From assembly GCF_000423585.1 (NCBI RefSeq), contig NZ_KE384056.1, forward strand, positions 45,845 through 109,844: a DNA stretch of 64,000 bases, in the 5' to 3' direction. Under the pieces are notes generated by a model. The model was not told the DNA's origin. It was given only the letters and a program-made list of their open reading frames with translations, and did not search any database. The stretch is from Salinimicrobium xinjiangense DSM 19287 (GTDB taxonomy: Bacteria > Bacteroidota > Bacteroidia > Flavobacteriales > Flavobacteriaceae). The position numbers and the translations under genes are program-made. Below are positions 5,591 to 21,777 of the stretch, piece by piece; the first letter of the stretch is position 1; every line of letters begins with the position of its first letter.

Positions 5591-5607
5591 GTGGAGTCGG
5601 AGGGGTT
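5591..5607 (-). repeat. ssrA 3'-end copy A (attL-like)
   Basis: GTGGAGTCGGAGGGGTT is identical over 17 bp to 21380-21396, i.e. the last bases of tmRNA (T-arm side and acceptor strand) plus one base. The match stops abruptly on the right, as for an attachment-site core next to inserted DNA. Confidence 0.6.
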
Positions 5608-12062: not shown

Positions 12063-14090
12063 TTTTTAAATCTTTTTAAAATTAAAAGTTATATTCTCCT
12101 TTTTTCCGCTTTTCTTTTGCTCCACCTCTCAAGCTGTACTGAGAGAAAGTCTTCCTATAATACGGATATAAAACAGGAGTTGGCGAAATCTGAAAAGTTA
12201 AAGGAGAAAATTTTTTCTGATCCTTCCAAGAGTGATTCTGTACTGAACGAAATCTTGTCGCTTAGTCAAGACTCTATTAAATCCAAAGTTTTATATGATA
12301 TTTCCTATAATTTTTATTCTAAAAGGGATTCTCTGAATTTTCGGTTGTGGAATAAAATAACCCTCCACCATTCCCTAAACTCCGGAGACACTGCGCGTGT
12401 TGCAGAAAGTTATTGGGACCTTGCAAATTTTTTTTATAAAGAAAAGATCCTGGACAGTTCGTACTATTACTATAATGTGGCCTTTGATTTATATGAGCAA
12501 GTAAATGATGACTACCACGCTGCGAGAATGTTGATTAATCTGGCCACTATTCAAAAGGATATAAAGGATTACCAGACCAGTGAGATTACTGCGATTCGGG
12601 CGTTGTCCAAATTACGCCCGTTGAAAAAGAAATATCAGCTGTACTTGACCTATAATATATTAGGAATAACAAACAATCATCTTGAGCAATATAATGAAGC
12701 CTTAAACTTTCACGAAAAAGCTTTACAAGTAGCTGAGGATTTGGGTGATGGAACGTTAAAAGCGCTGACTTTGAATAATATCGGAGTTGTCTATAAAAAC
12801 CTGGAGCAATATCCTGAAGCAATTAGAAGCTATAAAGCAGCTCAAGGAGTAGACAGTCTACAAAAAAAATATCCGGAACTTCATGCAATGTTAATAGATA
12901 ATCTGGCATATGCTCGATTTATGAGCAAGGACTATGTAAATGTTGAAAAGGACCTTCTTAGGTCTCTTGCCTTAAGAAAAGAAATTGATCATTTCTCCGG
13001 TATTGCCACGAGTTATCTTCATTTGGGAGATTACTACTTAAATTTTTCGGATACTTCAAGGGCATATCAGAACTATGTTGAGAGCAGGGAAATTGCTATT
13101 GACAAGAAATTGAATGAGGAATTTCTTGAGTCAACTTTAGCTTTAGCCAAAATAGGGGGAGGAAGATCGCAGGAGTTTTATAATGATTACATTGAGAAAT
13201 CAACCGAATTTTTGCAGGAAGAAAGAGCGGTAAAGAACCGATTTGCTAAGATTCGCTTTCAGACTGATGAGCTGATTGCGGAAACCAAGCGCCTTACACA
13301 ACAAAGGGTTTGGATTACAGTGGTTTCTGTACTGGTAATTATGTTCTTGTTGCTACTCTATTATTTGAGGGTACAACAGACTAAAAATAGGGCATTAGTT
13401 TATGAGCGGGAACAAAGGATCGCCAATGAAGAAATATATAAGTTAATGCTAAAGCAGCAGTCGAAGTTAGAAGAAGGCAGGCAACAGGAAAGGGAAAGAA
13501 TTTCTTCAGACTTGCATGACGGTGTGCTGGGCAGGCTATATGGTACGCGTTTAAGTTTAGAATTTCTCAATATAGAAATGTCCCAGGAAGAATTGAATAA
13601 ATTCAGCGCTCTTACAACTGAACTTCAAAAAATCGAGAAAGAGGTCCGGGAAATTTCACACGATTTAGTTTCAGAAAATTTTTTCAAGGATTCAAGTTTT
13701 GTTAATTTAATGGAAAACCTCCTGGAGGAAAGAAATAAGCTTGGGATTACAACTTTTAATTTTCAAAATTCTCCGGGCATCAGATGGGAAGACTTGAATG
13801 AAGAGGTGAAGTTAGACTTATACCGGATTGTCCAGGAAGGGACACAGAACATCGTAAAGCATTCCGGCGCAAAAGAAGCCTGGATTGCCCTTTGGGAGGA
13901 AGACTCTAAAATAATGTTGATCATTAGAGACAATGGGAGTGGGTTTTCTAAGGGTGAGGAGAAAAATGGTATAGGTTTAAAAAATACTAGGTCAAGAATT
14001 AAAAAATGGAATGGAGAACTTTTTATAACTGCTTCACCAGGACAAGGAACAGAGATAAGAATCGAGTTACTGATTGAAAATGGAGTATAA
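12060..14090 (+). CDS. TPR-containing sensor histidine kinase (HisKA_3)
   Basis: About 676 residues. No in-frame ATG precedes the signal peptide, so a TTG at 12060 is proposed; a TTG at 12024 lies inside the preceding terminator. Lipoprotein signal ending LSSC, then 6-7 tetratricopeptide repeats (e.g. LTLNNIGVVYKNLEQYPEAI), a membrane helix encoded around 13310-13370 (VVSVLVIMFLLLLYYL), a coiled linker, the HisKA_3 phospho-acceptor DLHDGV (13509-13526) and a HATPase domain (QEGTQNIVKHSGA, IRDNGSGF, NGIGLKNTRSRI). The TPR part is therefore outside the cytoplasm and probably senses a protein or peptide. The cognate regulator begins 1 bp after its stop. Confidence 0.85.
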   Translation: MFLNLFKIKSYILLFSAFLLLHLSSCTERKSSYNTDIKQELAKSEKLKEKIFSDPSKSDSVLNEILSLSQDSIKSKVLYDISYNFYSKRDSLNFRLWNKITLHHSLNSGDTARVAESYWDLANFFYKEKILDSSYYYYNVAFDLYEQVNDDYHAARMLINLATIQKDIKDYQTSEITAIRALSKLRPLKKKYQLYLTYNILGITNNHLEQYNEALNFHEKALQVAEDLGDGTLKALTLNNIGVVYKNLEQYPEAIRSYKAAQGVDSLQKKYPELHAMLIDNLAYARFMSKDYVNVEKDLLRSLALRKEIDHFSGIATSYLHLGDYYLNFSDTSRAYQNYVESREIAIDKKLNEEFLESTLALAKIGGGRSQEFYNDYIEKSTEFLQEERAVKNRFAKIRFQTDELIAETKRLTQQRVWITVVSVLVIMFLLLLYYLRVQQTKNRALVYEREQRIANEEIYKLMLKQQSKLEEGRQQERERISSDLHDGVLGRLYGTRLSLEFLNIEMSQEELNKFSALTTELQKIEKEVREISHDLVSENFFKDSSFVNLMENLLEERNKLGITTFNFQNSPGIRWEDLNEEVKLDLYRIVQEGTQNIVKHSGAKEAWIALWEEDSKIMLIIRDNGSGFSKGEEKNGIGLKNTRSRIKKWNGELFITASPGQGTEIRIELLIENGV

Positions 14091-14091
14091 A

Positions 14092-14762
14092 ATGAAAGCT
14101 TTTAATGTAGTTATTGTCGACGATCACCCTTTAATAACTGATTCTTATAAGACAGCTATAGAAAAGATATTTTCTTCCGGAGATATTATAACTAACGTCA
14201 CCATTCATAACAATCTGGATTCTGCTTTAGACGATTTCAAAAACTCCACTGTCTTTTCTGAAGCAGATCTAATTTTTTTGGATATCCAATTACCCCCCTC
14301 TAAAGATGACAAAGTATTTTCAGGTGAAGATTTAGGCGTTAAGATCAGGAAGAATGAGCTTTCTGCCAAAATAGTAATTTCTACCTCTTTAAATGATAAT
14401 TTCAGAATCCATGGATTATTAAAGAGTATTAATCCTGAAGGTTTCCTGATAAAGAACGATATCAATAAAACTGAGTTGTTAATTGCCATTGACAAGGTTA
14501 TACATACACCTCCTTACTACAGCCATACGGTTCTTCAGTTAATGCGTGATCAAGTAAGTTCGGATATTGTTTTGGATGCAAATGACAGGAAGATATTATT
14601 CGAGCTTTCCATAGGCACAAAACTTAAGGATTGCAAAAGGTAATCCCATTGTCCTTAAGCGGAATCGAAAAGAAGCGGCGCAATCTTAAAATTCTTTTCG
14701 GCGTTGAAGAAGAAGGGGATCGTTCCCTTGTACTTAAGGCCAGAGAAAAGGGTTTTCTGTAA
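14092..14762 (+). pseudogene. NarL/FixJ-type response regulator, frameshifted in its DNA-binding domain
   Basis: Starts with ATG at 14092 (MKAFNVVIVDDHP), 1 bp after the kinase stop; an upstream in-frame TTG at 14074 overlaps the kinase. The receiver domain is complete (IVDDHP, LIFLDIQLP, then VISTS). The current frame stops at 14643 after KLKDCKR. Adding one base in GATTG near 14629-14632 (to GATTTG) restores the usual helix-turn-helix: KVIPLSLSGIEK, NLKILFGVEEEGD, ending KAREKGFL at a stop in 14760-14762. So the gene is either a recent loss-of-function allele or carries a sequencing error. If real, the regulator cannot bind DNA normally. Confidence 0.8.
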
Positions 14763-14950
14763 GAAGCTTAAGGACTTTTTTCACCTGGAATTTCCAGATT
14801 TTGAGGCTAGAGATGAGTCTCTTAATTTAAATATATTCCTGAATATCATATTTCTAAGTGCAAGTCATGCGCAGCAGTCTTCAACGTGTATTTTGTATTG
14901 CATTTCGACTGCTTAATCTGTGATCTTCCATACCTGGATATAATTTCATG

Positions 14951-14979
14951 AAAAACACTTACTATAAGTAAGGGTTTTT
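14951..14979 (+). terminator. Intrinsic terminator after the kinase/regulator pair
   Basis: AAAAACACTTACT pairs with AGTAAGGGTTTTT over a 3-nt loop with one mismatch; U-run on both strands. It insulates the ubiquitin-like operon from the upstream genes. Confidence 0.7.
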
Positions 14980-15004
14980 CGTTTCCTCAGCAACTATTCT
15001 GACA

Positions 15005-15012
15005 TACTTTTG
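15005..15012 (+). promoter_or_regulatory. -7 box of the ubiquitin-like operon
   Basis: TACTTTTG fits TAnnTTTG exactly, right after a terminator and 34 bp before the first start codon. The -33 element is weak. Confidence 0.45.
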
Positions 15013-15046: not shown

Positions 15047-15298
15047 ATGAATAAAAAATGGAAGTTTAAAATAGAAGAAGAAACCCACGACTGGGATAAA
15101 CAATTAATAACAGGAGCAGAAGTTAGACAAGTTGGGCCGGGAATTCCTGATAACATGGATCTTTTTTTGAAGCGGCAGGGACGGCCCGGCCAGCTTGTAA
15201 AGAATGATGATAAAATAGACTTGGACGAAAAGGGAATAGAAAAGTTTTATTCTCAGGAATCAAGTTCGGAAGCTGGAATTTATGGCTCTATTATTTGA
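15047..15298 (+). CDS. Ubiquitin-like protein (multiubiquitin family, single domain)
   Basis: 83 residues. The order of strands and motifs matches the bacterial multiubiquitin beta-grasp domain: WKFKIEEETHDWDKQLITG at the start, the conserved G-x-P-x-x-MDLFLKR turn, and the terminal DDKIDLDEKGIEKFYSQ. Only one domain is present, whereas many relatives carry two or more. The tail ESSSEAGIYGSII has no Gly-Gly end, so a mature C-terminus would need trimming, plausibly by the JAB domain or DUF6527 protein of the same operon. Its last 17 bp overlap the E2 gene, so translation is coupled. Family assignment rests on visible motifs and on the operon. Confidence 0.8.
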   Translation: MNKKWKFKIEEETHDWDKQLITGAEVRQVGPGIPDNMDLFLKRQGRPGQLVKNDDKIDLDEKGIEKFYSQESSSEAGIYGSII

Positions 15299-15686
15299 GG
15301 ATGATTACGAACTACTGAAGAGTTCGGGTTTGGTCATAGAAGAGGATGAAGCTAAAAGGTTTTTAGTAATCAAGAATTATCCTGTTCAGCCGGATTTGTA
15401 TCTCGTCGGGGGGCAGCCAATCACTGAGCTTGAGGTTCTATTAATTATCCCTCCGAATTACAATACGAGTGGGGGAGATATGTTTTGGACTTATCCCCGT
15501 ATTTCAAGAGCTAATGGAATGATCATTCCTAATTATGGAGGTGATCCGCGAATTCACGCCGGAAAATCTTTTGACAGATGGTCGAGACATTTCAAACCCG
15601 GATCCTGGAGGCCGAAAATTGACAATGTCCAGAAGATTCTCAGTAGAGTAGAATGGGCTCTGAGGAACCCTCAGGTAACCGGATAG
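15282..15686 (+). CDS. E2-like protein (prokaryotic E2 family E), no cysteine
   Basis: 134 residues from an ATG that overlaps the Ubl stop. The centre carries the UBC-fold signature of the bacterial family: VLLIIPPNYN, GGDMFWTYPRI, then HAGKSFDRWSRHF and a final helix (NVQKILSRVEWALRNP). In ubiquitin pathways an E2 accepts the Ubl on a cysteine; this sequence contains no cysteine at all, so it cannot form a thioester. It might hold or position the Ubl, or use Ser/Asp/His chemistry. The gene sits between the Ubl and E1 genes with overlaps at both ends, so it is made together with them and is unlikely to be dead. Confidence 0.8.
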   Translation: MALLFEDDYELLKSSGLVIEEDEAKRFLVIKNYPVQPDLYLVGGQPITELEVLLIIPPNYNTSGGDMFWTYPRISRANGMIIPNYGGDPRIHAGKSFDRWSRHFKPGSWRPKIDNVQKILSRVEWALRNPQVTG

Positions 15687-17137
15687 ATATGGATCGAATA
15701 GCTTTATTAGGATCTCATCAAAACCAGCTTACTTCATGGCTATCATCCCATCCGGAGGGTCACGAACGCGGAGCAATCATTTTTTTTAGGAGGTTAGGAC
15801 GGAAGGTAGTCGGACTTCCGCATTCCGAGAGGTTCGTTTCTTTTGATATAGAACTTATGGATGACGATTGGATCCTGGATAGTTCGGAAGTTCACTTGCG
15901 CATTAACATGCGCAAACTACCTGAAATGTACTTCAGATGTGAAACAGAAAATTTAGTATTAGGTTTTGTTCATAGTCACCCGAGTGGTGTATTGCATTTT
16001 TCCCGAAAGGACGACATTAATGAAGAAAATCTTATCCATGGACTGGCCGGGTGTAATGGAATTCATTCGATTCTTGTTTCAATCATTTACTGCGATGGTA
16101 CCTGGAGAGGGAGAATAAGGACAGGGAAAGAACCGAATGAGGCTAAGCCGGTGCGACATATTTCAGTTCTCAGCGATAAGCTCGAACTGCACCACATAAC
16201 GGAATCAAAAGATTCTCCAGAATCTTTATTGCGCCAGGAAGCAGCCTTTGGAAAGCCTTTCAACGCTAAAATGGGCTCACTTCGGGCTGCTGTTGTGGGT
16301 CTCGGAGGTACGGGTTCCCCGGTAGCTACTATGCTGGCGAGGTGTGGTATAGGAGAGTTGGTCCTAATAGACGGTGATGATTTTGAAGAAACGAATATGA
16401 ATCGCGTACGGGGCTATAAATCTTCGGATGTGGGACATAAGAAAGCTGAGTCATTGAAGAAATTCATTGATGATCTTGGATTGGGAATAAAGGTGATTGC
16501 TTTTCCGGAATTTGTAGGGGATTCTGGGGAAGCGATCGATTCCCTTTCCAGTGCTGACGTAGTTTTCGGGTGCACAGATGATGTTGCAGGAAGGGATTTG
16601 CTGAACCATTGTATATATTATTATGGTCTTATCTTGATAGATTCCGGCCTTACCGGGTTTATACAGGAGGGAGAAGATGGAACCCCTCACTTGCGAGATC
16701 ACAGGGGGAGAGTGAGCTGTATTTTGCCTGAAATAGGCGCATGTCTAAGGTGTCAAGGGATTGTAACCGATATGAAGCTAAAATATGAACAGGCAATAAA
16801 AGACCGGCCGGAATTGGCAGACCTTTATCCGGAAACTTTAAAAAGGGAGCATTACCTGATTGGAGGTGGGAATTCTGCTCCGGGAGTCGGTCCATTTACT
16901 TCCATGACTGCTGATAATGCCTTGGCTACTTTTATGAATTTAATAAAACCTTACCGAAGGCTTCCGAGCGATCTAAGACAGGACAACATTTGGGTAGATT
17001 TTGTTCATATGAGTATTCATAGTAATGAGCCTGCGGAAAATCCTGATTGTATTTACTGCAGGAAAAAGTTCCTAACCTTAAAAGAGGAAAACTACCGATT
17101 GGATATGGCAAAACTCGGTAAAATCTCAAATGTTTAA
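15653..17137 (+). CDS. JAB isopeptidase - E1 (ThiF) fusion protein
   Basis: 494 residues if started at ATG 15653, overlapping the E2 end; an ATG at 15689 is possible. N-terminal JAB/JAMM domain with the full zinc-protease set: E38 (HERGAIIFF), H107-S-H109-P, S117 and D120. C-terminal E1-like adenylating domain: Rossmann loop GLGGTGS (216-222), LIDGDDFEETNMNR (238-251), GCTDD (306-310), and two CxxC pairs (C364/C367, C466/C469) that should bind structural zinc. It would trim or deconjugate the Ubl and activate its C-terminus with ATP. No separate E3 gene is present. The stop overlaps the next start by 8 bp. Confidence 0.85.
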   Translation: MGSEEPSGNRIDMDRIALLGSHQNQLTSWLSSHPEGHERGAIIFFRRLGRKVVGLPHSERFVSFDIELMDDDWILDSSEVHLRINMRKLPEMYFRCETENLVLGFVHSHPSGVLHFSRKDDINEENLIHGLAGCNGIHSILVSIIYCDGTWRGRIRTGKEPNEAKPVRHISVLSDKLELHHITESKDSPESLLRQEAAFGKPFNAKMGSLRAAVVGLGGTGSPVATMLARCGIGELVLIDGDDFEETNMNRVRGYKSSDVGHKKAESLKKFIDDLGLGIKVIAFPEFVGDSGEAIDSLSSADVVFGCTDDVAGRDLLNHCIYYYGLILIDSGLTGFIQEGEDGTPHLRDHRGRVSCILPEIGACLRCQGIVTDMKLKYEQAIKDRPELADLYPETLKREHYLIGGGNSAPGVGPFTSMTADNALATFMNLIKPYRRLPSDLRQDNIWVDFVHMSIHSNEPAENPDCIYCRKKFLTLKEENYRLDMAKLGKISNV

Positions 17138-17558
17138 AGGTTTATTTAAAAAATTAAGGTGTGTATTTGGAAGAAACTCTTCACGGAGAAATGATGCAAA
17201 ACCGCCTCATTTTGGCAGCGTAGTAGTAAGCACAAAAGCACCCGCGAACGATGAAATTGAAGAACGAGTATTAATTCAGGTAAAATACCAAGGTAAACCC
17301 TACTGGTGTCTCTTTAAATGTCCTTGTGGTTGCAGAAGAGTTATTAGTCTTTCCTTGCAGGAAAATCACGAACCTCACTGGGAATTAAAAGTTACGGAAT
17401 CCGGGATACCGAGTTTATCTCCATCTGTTTGGCAAACCGTTGGATGTTTGAGTCACTTCTGGATTGAAGAAGGATTTGTTAGATGGTGTACTAATACCGG
17501 ACAGAAGCCTTGGATTGCAGAACCTGAATATTACTCAAAGCCTCGAAAAAATTTGTAA
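17130..17558 (+). CDS. DUF6527 protein of the ubiquitin-like operon
   Basis: 142 residues; ATG at 17130 lies inside the last codons of the E1 gene. Features typical of DUF6527: a strand ending in LFKCPCGCRRVI (CPCGC at 64-68), PHWEL, and the signature GCLSHFWIEEGFVRWC (105-120). The Cys/His pattern suggests a small zinc-binding or hydrolase-like fold. The N-terminus is basic (KKLRCVFGRNSSRR). The family is a constant partner of multiubiquitin/E2/E1 operons and is thought to act in Ubl processing or ligation; the exact reaction is not deducible here. An overlapping 98-codon frame (17464-17760) is taken as a shadow. Confidence 0.8.
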   Translation: MFKGLFKKLRCVFGRNSSRRNDAKPPHFGSVVVSTKAPANDEIEERVLIQVKYQGKPYWCLFKCPCGCRRVISLSLQENHEPHWELKVTESGIPSLSPSVWQTVGCLSHFWIEEGFVRWCTNTGQKPWIAEPEYYSKPRKNL

Positions 17559-19869: not shown

Positions 19870-21129
19870 CTACTCCTCTTTCTGTTTTTCAGAAATAGAT
19901 TTCATTTTTTCTTTTTTTGCCAGCTTGATCTTTAGCGCCTGCATGTCATCACTTATTTTTCTGTCCACAATTTTCGCATAATGTTGGGTTGTCCTCAGAT
20001 CTTTATGCCCGAGCATCTTACTCACGGATTCAATTGGAACTCCATTAGTTAGTGTTATGGTAGTGGCAAAGGTATGGCGGGTTAGGTGAGTGGTGAGCAG
20101 TTTATTAATACCGCACATCATGGCAATTTCCTTTAAGAAGGCATTCGATTTCTGATTGCTGAGAACTGGGAGGATGCAATCTCTCTTTCGTACCTCCGGG
20201 TGGTCCTGATATCGTTCAATGATTTCTTCGGCAACAGGTAATAGAGGAATGCTACTCAAAGATTTTGTTTTCGTTCTTTTAATGCGAATCCATTTACCAC
20301 CGTCTATACCTTTGGTAATATCGGCGCTGCTCAGTTTTTTAACATCAGAATATGCCAGTCCGGTGTAACAACTAAAAACAAACATGTCTCGCACCAGTTT
20401 TAACCGATCCATGTGAAGATCCTTATTGATCAGTTTCTGTACTTCTTCTTCATTAAGAAATTCCCTTTCCACCGTTTCAAACTGAACTTTATAATTGTAG
20501 AATGGATCCCGGTCCATCCATTGATTGGCTAAAGCAATTCGAATAATCTTTTTGAAGTTGTTGACGTACTTCAAAGCAGAGTTATGATTGCATTCTCTTT
20601 TGGTTTTCAAGAAATACTCAAACTTCGAAATGAACTGATAGCTGATATCATTCAAAGGATAATCGTTGGCCTTATATTCTTCCTCAATGAATTGCTCAAC
20701 ATGATTAAAACACGTCCAGTATCTTTTAGCAGTGCTCTTAGAAATATTCTTTCCTGAAAGCCGGTCCATTTGCTCATTATGCTCCTTAAATACCTTCAGG
20801 GTCATTTTTGGTTTCGGCTTATTTTCCCCTTTAAATTCTTCAAGAATACTTTTTAGAGTTATCTCCAAATCTTTTTCGACGAGGCCCTGGTGTATTTTCC
20901 TGATTTTATTCCTGAGGACATTAATATAATCATTGAGTTCAGTAGCTTCCGTGCTTTTCCCTAAAGCTCTTTCAGATTTCGAACTCCATTTCCCGAAGTC
21001 AATTTTTCGGCTAATACTAATGTCAGATCGCTTGTTATTCACTGTAATCCGCATATAAACATCACCGTCTGAGGTCTTCTTACTTCTACTTTTTCTAACG
21101 AAGAATGTGAGCTGATACTGAGTGTGCAT
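19870..21129 (-). CDS. Tyrosine recombinase (Bacteroidota-type integrase) of the island
   Basis: 419 residues: N-terminal arm-binding-like domain (FVRKSRSKKTSDGDVYMRITVN), a SAM-like core-binding domain (~105-205) and a C-terminal catalytic domain with FSCYTGLAYSDVKKL, the beta-hairpin lysine (RTKTKSLSSIPLLP), HLTRHTFATT, LGHKDLRTTQHYAKI with the nucleophile Tyr. The usual first arginine in TGLR is replaced by Ala (TGLAYSD), as is common in integrases of Bacteroidota transposons and islands. It points away from ssrA, and its 5' flank carries inverted repeats. It should drive integration at and excision from the ssrA 3' end. Confidence 0.9.
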   Translation of the reverse strand: MHTQYQLTFFVRKSRSKKTSDGDVYMRITVNNKRSDISISRKIDFGKWSSKSERALGKSTEATELNDYINVLRNKIRKIHQGLVEKDLEITLKSILEEFKGENKPKPKMTLKVFKEHNEQMDRLSGKNISKSTAKRYWTCFNHVEQFIEEEYKANDYPLNDISYQFISKFEYFLKTKRECNHNSALKYVNNFKKIIRIALANQWMDRDPFYNYKVQFETVEREFLNEEEVQKLINKDLHMDRLKLVRDMFVFSCYTGLAYSDVKKLSSADITKGIDGGKWIRIKRTKTKSLSSIPLLPVAEEIIERYQDHPEVRKRDCILPVLSNQKSNAFLKEIAMMCGINKLLTTHLTRHTFATTITLTNGVPIESVSKMLGHKDLRTTQHYAKIVDRKISDDMQALKIKLAKKEKMKSISEKQKEE

Positions 21130-21357: not shown

Positions 21358-21380
21358 GATTGAGTTTGGTACTCATAAAG

Positions 21381-21777
21381 TGGAGTCGGAGGGGTTCGAA
21401 CCCTCGTCCAAACAAGCAATTCAGAAGCTTTCTACACGTTTAGTTTTCGCTTGTTTTTCGATGCAAAGCCGGCCGAAAACCACCAACTTTACACTTATCC
21501 TCAATTAGATTTCGAAACTGCATCAAGGCCCTGCAGTCTCTATATTTACTTTATCGGTGCCTCTAATGTGAATGCCGTAAATCAAGGCCTTCACGAGACA
21601 TCTTGGCTCCCTACCTTGTAGGGACTAGAGTAATCCTACTATAATTCAGATTATGCTGCCAAGGCGTAGTTATTCTCGCCGTTTAAAAAGTGTGAAAAAT
21701 GAGATTTACGAGCTATTTCCCAGCGCTCGACGTGCTTACAACTCAATTAGACTCGCTGTCAAAACCAAGTCGACCCC
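21381..21777 (-). ncRNA. ssrA: tmRNA (transfer-messenger RNA)
   Basis: About 397 nt. The 5' acceptor strand GGGGTCG (21777-21771) pairs with CGACTCC near the 3' end; the T-arm reads GAGGGTTCGAACCCCTC; discriminator A at 21381; CCA is not encoded. The tag frame at 21680-21651 reads GGC GAG AAT AAC TAC GCC TTG GCA GCA TAA, i.e. tag residues GENNYALAA with the resume codon GGC, the form usual in Bacteroidota. It rescues stalled ribosomes with SmpB and marks the proteins for proteolysis. The 3' end is used as the island's integration site. Confidence 0.95.

Follow-up and report, generated by a model that had tools for sequence, protein, structure and literature searches.

A one-Ubl Bub operon within an ssrA-associated island of Salinimicrobium xinjiangense

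Four neighboring plus-strand genes of Salinimicrobium xinjiangense DSM 19287, at positions 15047-17558 of the window (the whole 64,000-nucleotide stretch of contig NZ_KE384056.1 analyzed here), encode a ubiquitin-like protein (Ubl), an E2, a JAB-E1 fusion and a DUF6527 protein, in that order (Table 1). Based on family, structure and gene-order matches, the locus belongs to the Bub operons with a single Ubl. All four reading frames lie where the initial annotation had placed them, and the Bub name that it had suggested is apt: the Citrobacter Bub proteins match, and relatives show the identical gene order. The operon type, which it had given as known from comparative genomics, was already described in 2006, as row 6e of Iyer et al. 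(PMC1779556). By hmmscan, the Ubl matches PF14452 (Multi_ubiq; 1.9e-8, 34.8 bits, cut-off 24.5), the E2 matches PF14462 (Prok-E2_E; 8.5e-28), the E1 half of the fusion matches PF00899 (ThiF; 3.9e-36) and the last protein matches PF20137 (4.1e-20, 71.9 bits, cut-off 23.6). The JAB half falls below the 25-bit cut-off of PF14464 (4.5e-4, 20.5 bits). For the Ubl and the E2, on which the identification hinges, a chance origin of the matches is rejected by hmmscan, by the sequence match of the E2 to Citrobacter BubB (9eae; 5.5e-8) and by the predicted E2 fold. The absence of an E3-like RING gene, stated in the initial annotation, holds for the 12 island proteins that were compared with Pfam. Profile searches of the host genome gave one PF14462 match and one DUF6527 match. 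PADLOC matched the window E1 with its E1-E2 models and gave no match for the Ubl, the E2 or the DUF6527 protein.

Table 1. Features of the operon and its island, in window coordinates.
Feature	Position	Strand	Basis
Left attachment-site copy, 17 bp = ssrA 3' end	5591..5607	+	Exact repeat of 21380-21396
Terminator-like hairpin	14948..14982	+	RNA fold -13.3 kcal/mol, z -5.8 vs shuffles
TAnnTTTG box, possible Bacteroidota -7 element	15005..15012	+	Sole box in 150 bp upstream
BubA-like single Ubl, 83 aa, Gly77 + six-residue tail	15047..15298	+	PF14452, structure matches
BubB-like E2, 134 aa, no cysteine, Ser101/His103/Trp109/Asp114 invariant	15282..15686	+	PF14462, 9eae
BubCD-like JAB-E1 fusion	15689..17137 (ORF opens 15653; 15689 likelier start)	+	PF00899, BubCD match
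DUF6527 protein, zinc-finger-like Cys/His pattern, 142 aa	17130..17558	+	PF20137
Tyrosine integrase of island	19870..21129	-	PF13102 5.2e-21, PF00589 1.2e-15
ssrA (tmRNA), integration target	21380..21777	-	ARAGORN
Right attachment-site copy, inside ssrA 3' end	21380..21396	+	Exact repeat of 5591-5607

The Ubl matches the multi-ubiquitin structures 9d59 and 9cd2 (1.6e-12) and, weakly, BubA 9ea8 (E 0.005). The Gly77 column holds Gly in all 69 aligned last-domain rows with a residue there, five further rows being gapped. In the 46 separate Ubls having this Gly, 0-14 residues follow it; in fused forms the E2 comes after the terminal Gly. The E2 resembles its Citrobacter counterpart in fold as well as sequence: the AlphaFold model (pLDDT 95) aligns with 9eae_C, BubB, at E 6.2e-7 and TM 0.78-0.82, with 28% identity over the structural alignment, and 9eae_C is its sole PDB fold match at E 0.001 or better. 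Both proteins carry the motif WSRH. The window E2 is one of 17 Cys-free sequences among 80 aligned E2 stretches, and no column of that alignment has Cys in more than 14 of the 80. In contrast, S101, H103, W109 and D114 are kept in 80/80. Position 98, which is Cys in 11 of 15 members of the clade described below, was considered as a catalytic Cys and rejected, being Asp in the window and Gln in 61 of 65 non-clade sequences. A tblastn search of phage records found no E2 relative.

In the fusion protein, the JAMM residues E38, H107, H109, S117 and D120 of the JAB half are present, and 88-89 of 91 aligned relatives keep them. Citrobacter BubCD is matched over residues 97-439 (2.6e-23). Cys conservation was counted in the columns where the window itself has Cys, which number 11: C307, in a CTD motif, is kept in 91/91, and four zinc-type Cys in 78-83/91. 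The JAB half contributes C96, which is shared by 15/15 clade members but by only 2/76 others, so that a clade-specific Cys role in the E1 is possible. The DUF6527 protein has the pattern C64-x3-C68-x37-C106-x2-H109, which is the metal-binding signature given by Iyer et al. (PMC1779556) except for the order of the last two residues. C64 and P65 are conserved in 94/95 relatives, and W84, P98, S99 and H109 in 92/95. With its structure model (pLDDT 88), Foldseek found no match in the PDB at E 0.001 or better; at the same threshold, a viral structure library gave matches to two small unnamed proteins. A profile search for DUF6527 structures likewise found nothing significant.

To place the operon among its relatives, we used the best 80 of 149 confirmed loci from a scan of named genomes. 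The E2 is present in 78 and DUF6527 in all 80; the two loci with no E2, L087 and L094, are cut by contig ends and do not enter the E1 and E2 counts. The position of the DUF6527 gene varies: it lies more than 1.4 kb past the E1 gene in L091, L104, L105 and L107, and on the opposite strand in L095, L097 and L102. The DUF6527 frame of L033 has only 86 aa. At L032:5995-7836, a single 613-aa open frame appears to fuse JAB-E1 with DUF6527. Among plasmid records, Ubl/E2, ThiF and DUF6527 are annotated in order in 9/11; of the other two, L011 carries no annotation and the DUF6527 gene of L017 is unannotated yet was found by our scan.

An E1 tree puts the window in a clade of at least 15 members (support 100/100, stem 2.07), although the window's own fork within it is weaker (91/63). 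Clade counts are lower bounds, because only the best 80 of 149 loci were used. Ten of the 13 clade members from the genome scan are 57-62% identical to the window in E1, and three are 42-46% identical. The labels on the clade span Pseudomonadota, Bacteroidota, Thermodesulfobacteriota, Bacillota (a metagenome bin) and Balneolota; such scatter on a tree is no proof of transfer, but lateral transfer is likely because the operon sits on an island. Every clade member (15/15) has one Ubl domain and a separate E2. Among the 63 scored loci outside the clade, two domains were counted in 41, one in 18 and none in 4, these being automatic ORF calls in which some of the 18 are artefacts and the zero-domain loci L068, L069, L072 and L095, as well as L064, look like wrong frames. 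The single-Ubl form noted in the initial annotation is therefore real; with 18/63 loci elsewhere also having one domain, it is not unusual, and the idea that it is unique was discarded.

The DUF6527 family reaches beyond Bub. In samples of the phylum, it was found in 25/395 genomes (24 over the cut-off and one below it; a single genus accounts for five of the 25, all weak and partial) and PF14462 in 9/395, so we rejected DUF6527 as Bub-specific. Fourteen loci in 13 genomes (L154-L167) have a short protein gene and a ThiF gene followed by a DUF6527 gene, and the Bub E2 profile is unmatched in all 14. Their short proteins all end in a conserved Ser and have no Gly tail. A Pfam scan of part of this set called the Ubl Multi_ubiq at two loci and found DUF6791 in place of JAB in the single ThiF protein that it covered; by eye, the unscanned members look alike. 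These loci resemble the version of row 6e in which another domain replaces JAB (Iyer et al.; PMC1779556). One further DUF6527 gene, L168:4106-4408, lies inside a phage-like stretch at a locus with no E1 or E2 match.

The initial annotation had the genes overlapping by 17, 34 and 8 bp. The reading frames bear out the first and last of these overlaps, while the 34-bp overlap between E2 and E1 holds only if E1 begins at its first ATG. Of 13 clade relatives, 11 have an E1 Met no more than 4 bases from where E2 ends, beside the protein's conserved beginning; judged by eye, this Met is the counterpart of Met13 in the window frame, at 15689, 2 bp past the E2 stop. For L032 and L038, the sole nearby E1 Met is 13-16 bases upstream. 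Five of the 13 (L031, L037, L039, L041 and L042) resemble the window in having an additional in-frame ATG, 30-33 bases ahead of the E2 end. Because of the 11 relatives with Met near the E2 end, 15689 is the likelier predicted E1 start rather than 15653.

It had also proposed that the operon follows its own -7 box after a terminator. The hairpin is stable, but it is not among the entries of a terminator consensus scan, and the promoter claim is weak because about 0.10 TAnnTTTG boxes are expected by chance per 150 bp. Further upstream, Pfam identified a LytTR regulator, a TPR histidine kinase and a response regulator. The last (14074-14643) ends early, shortly past the receiver region, in an apparently broken frame, and may have no output domain. 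None of these is a Cap-type regulator. In the operon counts of PMC13373217 (EMBO J 2026), CapW or CapH+CapP accompany 219 of the 544 Bub operons reported, and CapK+CapS accompany 59; such a regulator is frequent in Bub operons, is not required and does not define them. Upstream genes in the clade are diverse. In a Pfam scan that took in every clade locus of the genome scan except L035 (12 of 13), we found HTH genes, each adjoining a gene without a Pfam match (L037, L042), an HTH gene with a weak IrrE-type match (L040), a WYL regulator (L041), a HATPase gene (L031), an Lrp/AsnC regulator (L036), a winged-helix gene (L039), a PemK-like toxin gene (L034) and a response regulator (L032); L033 and L038 yielded weak matches at most. 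In L043, the clade Bub operon directly follows a Gabija-like pair of OLD/TOPRIM ATPase and UvrD helicase genes (L043:1120-5089).

The operon had been assigned to an ssrA island, and this is well founded: an integrase gene lies beside ssrA, and 17-bp repeats of the ssrA end stand on both sides. Allowing up to three mismatches, the window contains the repeat five times, twice without mismatch, versus 0.05 expected. The repeats bound an island of about 15.8 kb. Short stretches before the left repeat resemble the ssrA-flanking DNA of a same-genus genome, G011. PF14462 is absent from all 11 other genomes of the genus, two of which are 74-75% complete. An ssrA match was found in nine of the 11; in all nine the DNA flanking ssrA on its other side is preserved, three have related integrase DNA beside ssrA, and three share a stretch 15.9-17.5 kb left of the window start. 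Since the shared stretch is that far left, further foreign DNA lies left of 5591. From there to a point about 17.2 kb outside the window on its left, same-genus relatives do not have this DNA at the corresponding place, and the arrangement looks as if two elements were in tandem at ssrA. In G+C, the two kilobases holding most of the operon (0.41-0.45) stand above the rest of the island (0.31-0.39); with values of 0.38-0.46 in the chromosomal DNA immediately right of ssrA, base composition gives no sign that the operon is foreign to the host. Elsewhere in the window, 11-730 holds three tandem copies of a 240-bp unit.

How might these proteins work together? In the reading that we prefer, at a probability of about 0.7 for the whole, the operon is one-Ubl Bub cargo that combines JAB trimming, ThiF adenylation, a Ser ester on the E2 and an accessory DUF6527 protein. 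The JAB half would cut the six-residue Ubl tail after Gly77, and the ThiF half would adenylate the Gly77 carboxylate. The Ubl would then move to the E2 and, until its transfer to a target, be carried as an oxyester on Ser101, with His103 and Asp114 assisting. Ser101 is proposed as the holder because the E2 has no cysteine; the basis of this step is residue conservation. The JAB might additionally remove tags. The DUF6527 protein may serve the Ubl or the E1 as an accessory zinc protein, perhaps in target choice or deconjugation, a role that is a guess because its fold matched nothing in the PDB. On the trimming step, two Sphingomonas loci are of interest: in L073 and L077 the JAB has lost its JAMM residues and the Ubl ends exactly at Gly, with no tail. 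In L067 the JAB departs from JAMM at the Glu only, and again the Ubl has no tail. This link between JAB and tail is suggestive and goes no further, because L073 and L077 are sisters, hence one event, and 11 of the 44 other separate Gly Ubls are tailless too.

An extension of this scheme is possible but doubtful: the one-Ubl clade may form a Bub subtype of its own that spreads from phylum to phylum, with a Cys-free Ser-ester relay and a JAB maturase, and that has here passed from the usual Cap DNA-damage control to another regulator.

Against the ester relay, Iyer et al. read the Cys-less E2 as catalytically inactive, proposing an inactive E2/RWD fold (PMC1779556). The E2-like protein would then be an RWD-like, Ubl-binding scaffold, and the E1 would give adenylated Ubl directly to targets or only make the Ubl acyl-adenylate. 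The lack of Cys suits this reading, as do the 14 Ubl, ThiF and DUF6527 loci unmatched by the E2 profile. We find it somewhat unlikely, given that Ser, His and Asp are kept in 80/80 within 14 residues, more than a scaffold seems to need, and that a BubCD-BubB complex has been deposited (9eae). It is unlikely, too, that DUF6527 rather than JAB is the processing or deconjugating peptidase. That the protein accompanies Ubl and ThiF in those 14 loci, where one scanned ThiF has no JAB, and that Ser99 and His109 are kept in 92/95 would fit a peptidase; its Cys/His pattern, however, reads as a zinc finger (PMC1779556), and the Ubls of the 14 loci have no tail after Gly, so there would be nothing to trim there. 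Decay of the operon into a non-working island passenger, to which the early end of the adjoining response regulator (14643) and a Ubl tail longer than in the other 14 clade members (six residues versus 0-2) might point, is very unlikely with four open frames and the conserved JAB, E1, E2 and DUF6527 residues retained.

As for physiology, the initial annotation had put the operon down as defense or stress cargo, which we keep as an inference. A stress or phage response is probably its role; according to the EMBO J 2026 report (PMC13373217), phage protection by Bub has yet to be demonstrated.

The closest structural comparison is with Citrobacter BubA, BubB and BubCD (9ea4, 9ea5, 9ea8, 9eae, 9eav), with which the E2 and JAB-E1 are homologous by sequence and the E2 shares its fold. 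The deposited piece of Citrobacter BubA is named 155-229, whereas the window has one Ubl of 83 aa. The CxxC at 364/367 of the window E1 is missing from Citrobacter BubCD in the aligned stretch; a second CxxC lies outside that stretch. Row 6e of Iyer et al. (PMC1779556) shares with the window a Ubl, a Cys-less E2/RWD fold, a JAB-E1 fusion and a metal-binding protein, along with a mobile, patchy distribution and, in one species, a solo Ubl; the list given for the row names no Bacteroidota. The multiubiquitin cassette of the Synechocystis plasmid pSYSX (2016, PMC4963859; L019), for which lateral transfer was proposed in that account, has the same four-gene order and a separate E2. Its Ubl, however, has 152 aa, and an HTH and ImmA/IrrE pair lies upstream, where the window has the histidine kinase and short response regulator.

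The window offers a compact addition to a bacterial ubiquitin-like pathway that is still little understood; every part is small and intact, and all lie on a defined mobile island. With a Cys-free E2 and a single Ubl that has a tail, the operon is a simple system in which to study conjugation without E2 thioesters. Unusual chemistry is reportedly discussed in Bub papers. Ubl, E1, E2 and JAB chemistry also operates in bacterial immunity, in Bil (BilABCD) and in type II CBASS (Cap2/Cap3). Both use Cys-based E2s and differ from the window in gene order and in the DUF6527 gene. Bil in particular has a catalytic-Cys E2 and a JAB apart from the E1, whereas the window has an E2 without Cys and a JAB fused to the E1. 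Taken together, the four genes form a complete set similar to the machinery with which human cells tag proteins with ubiquitin.
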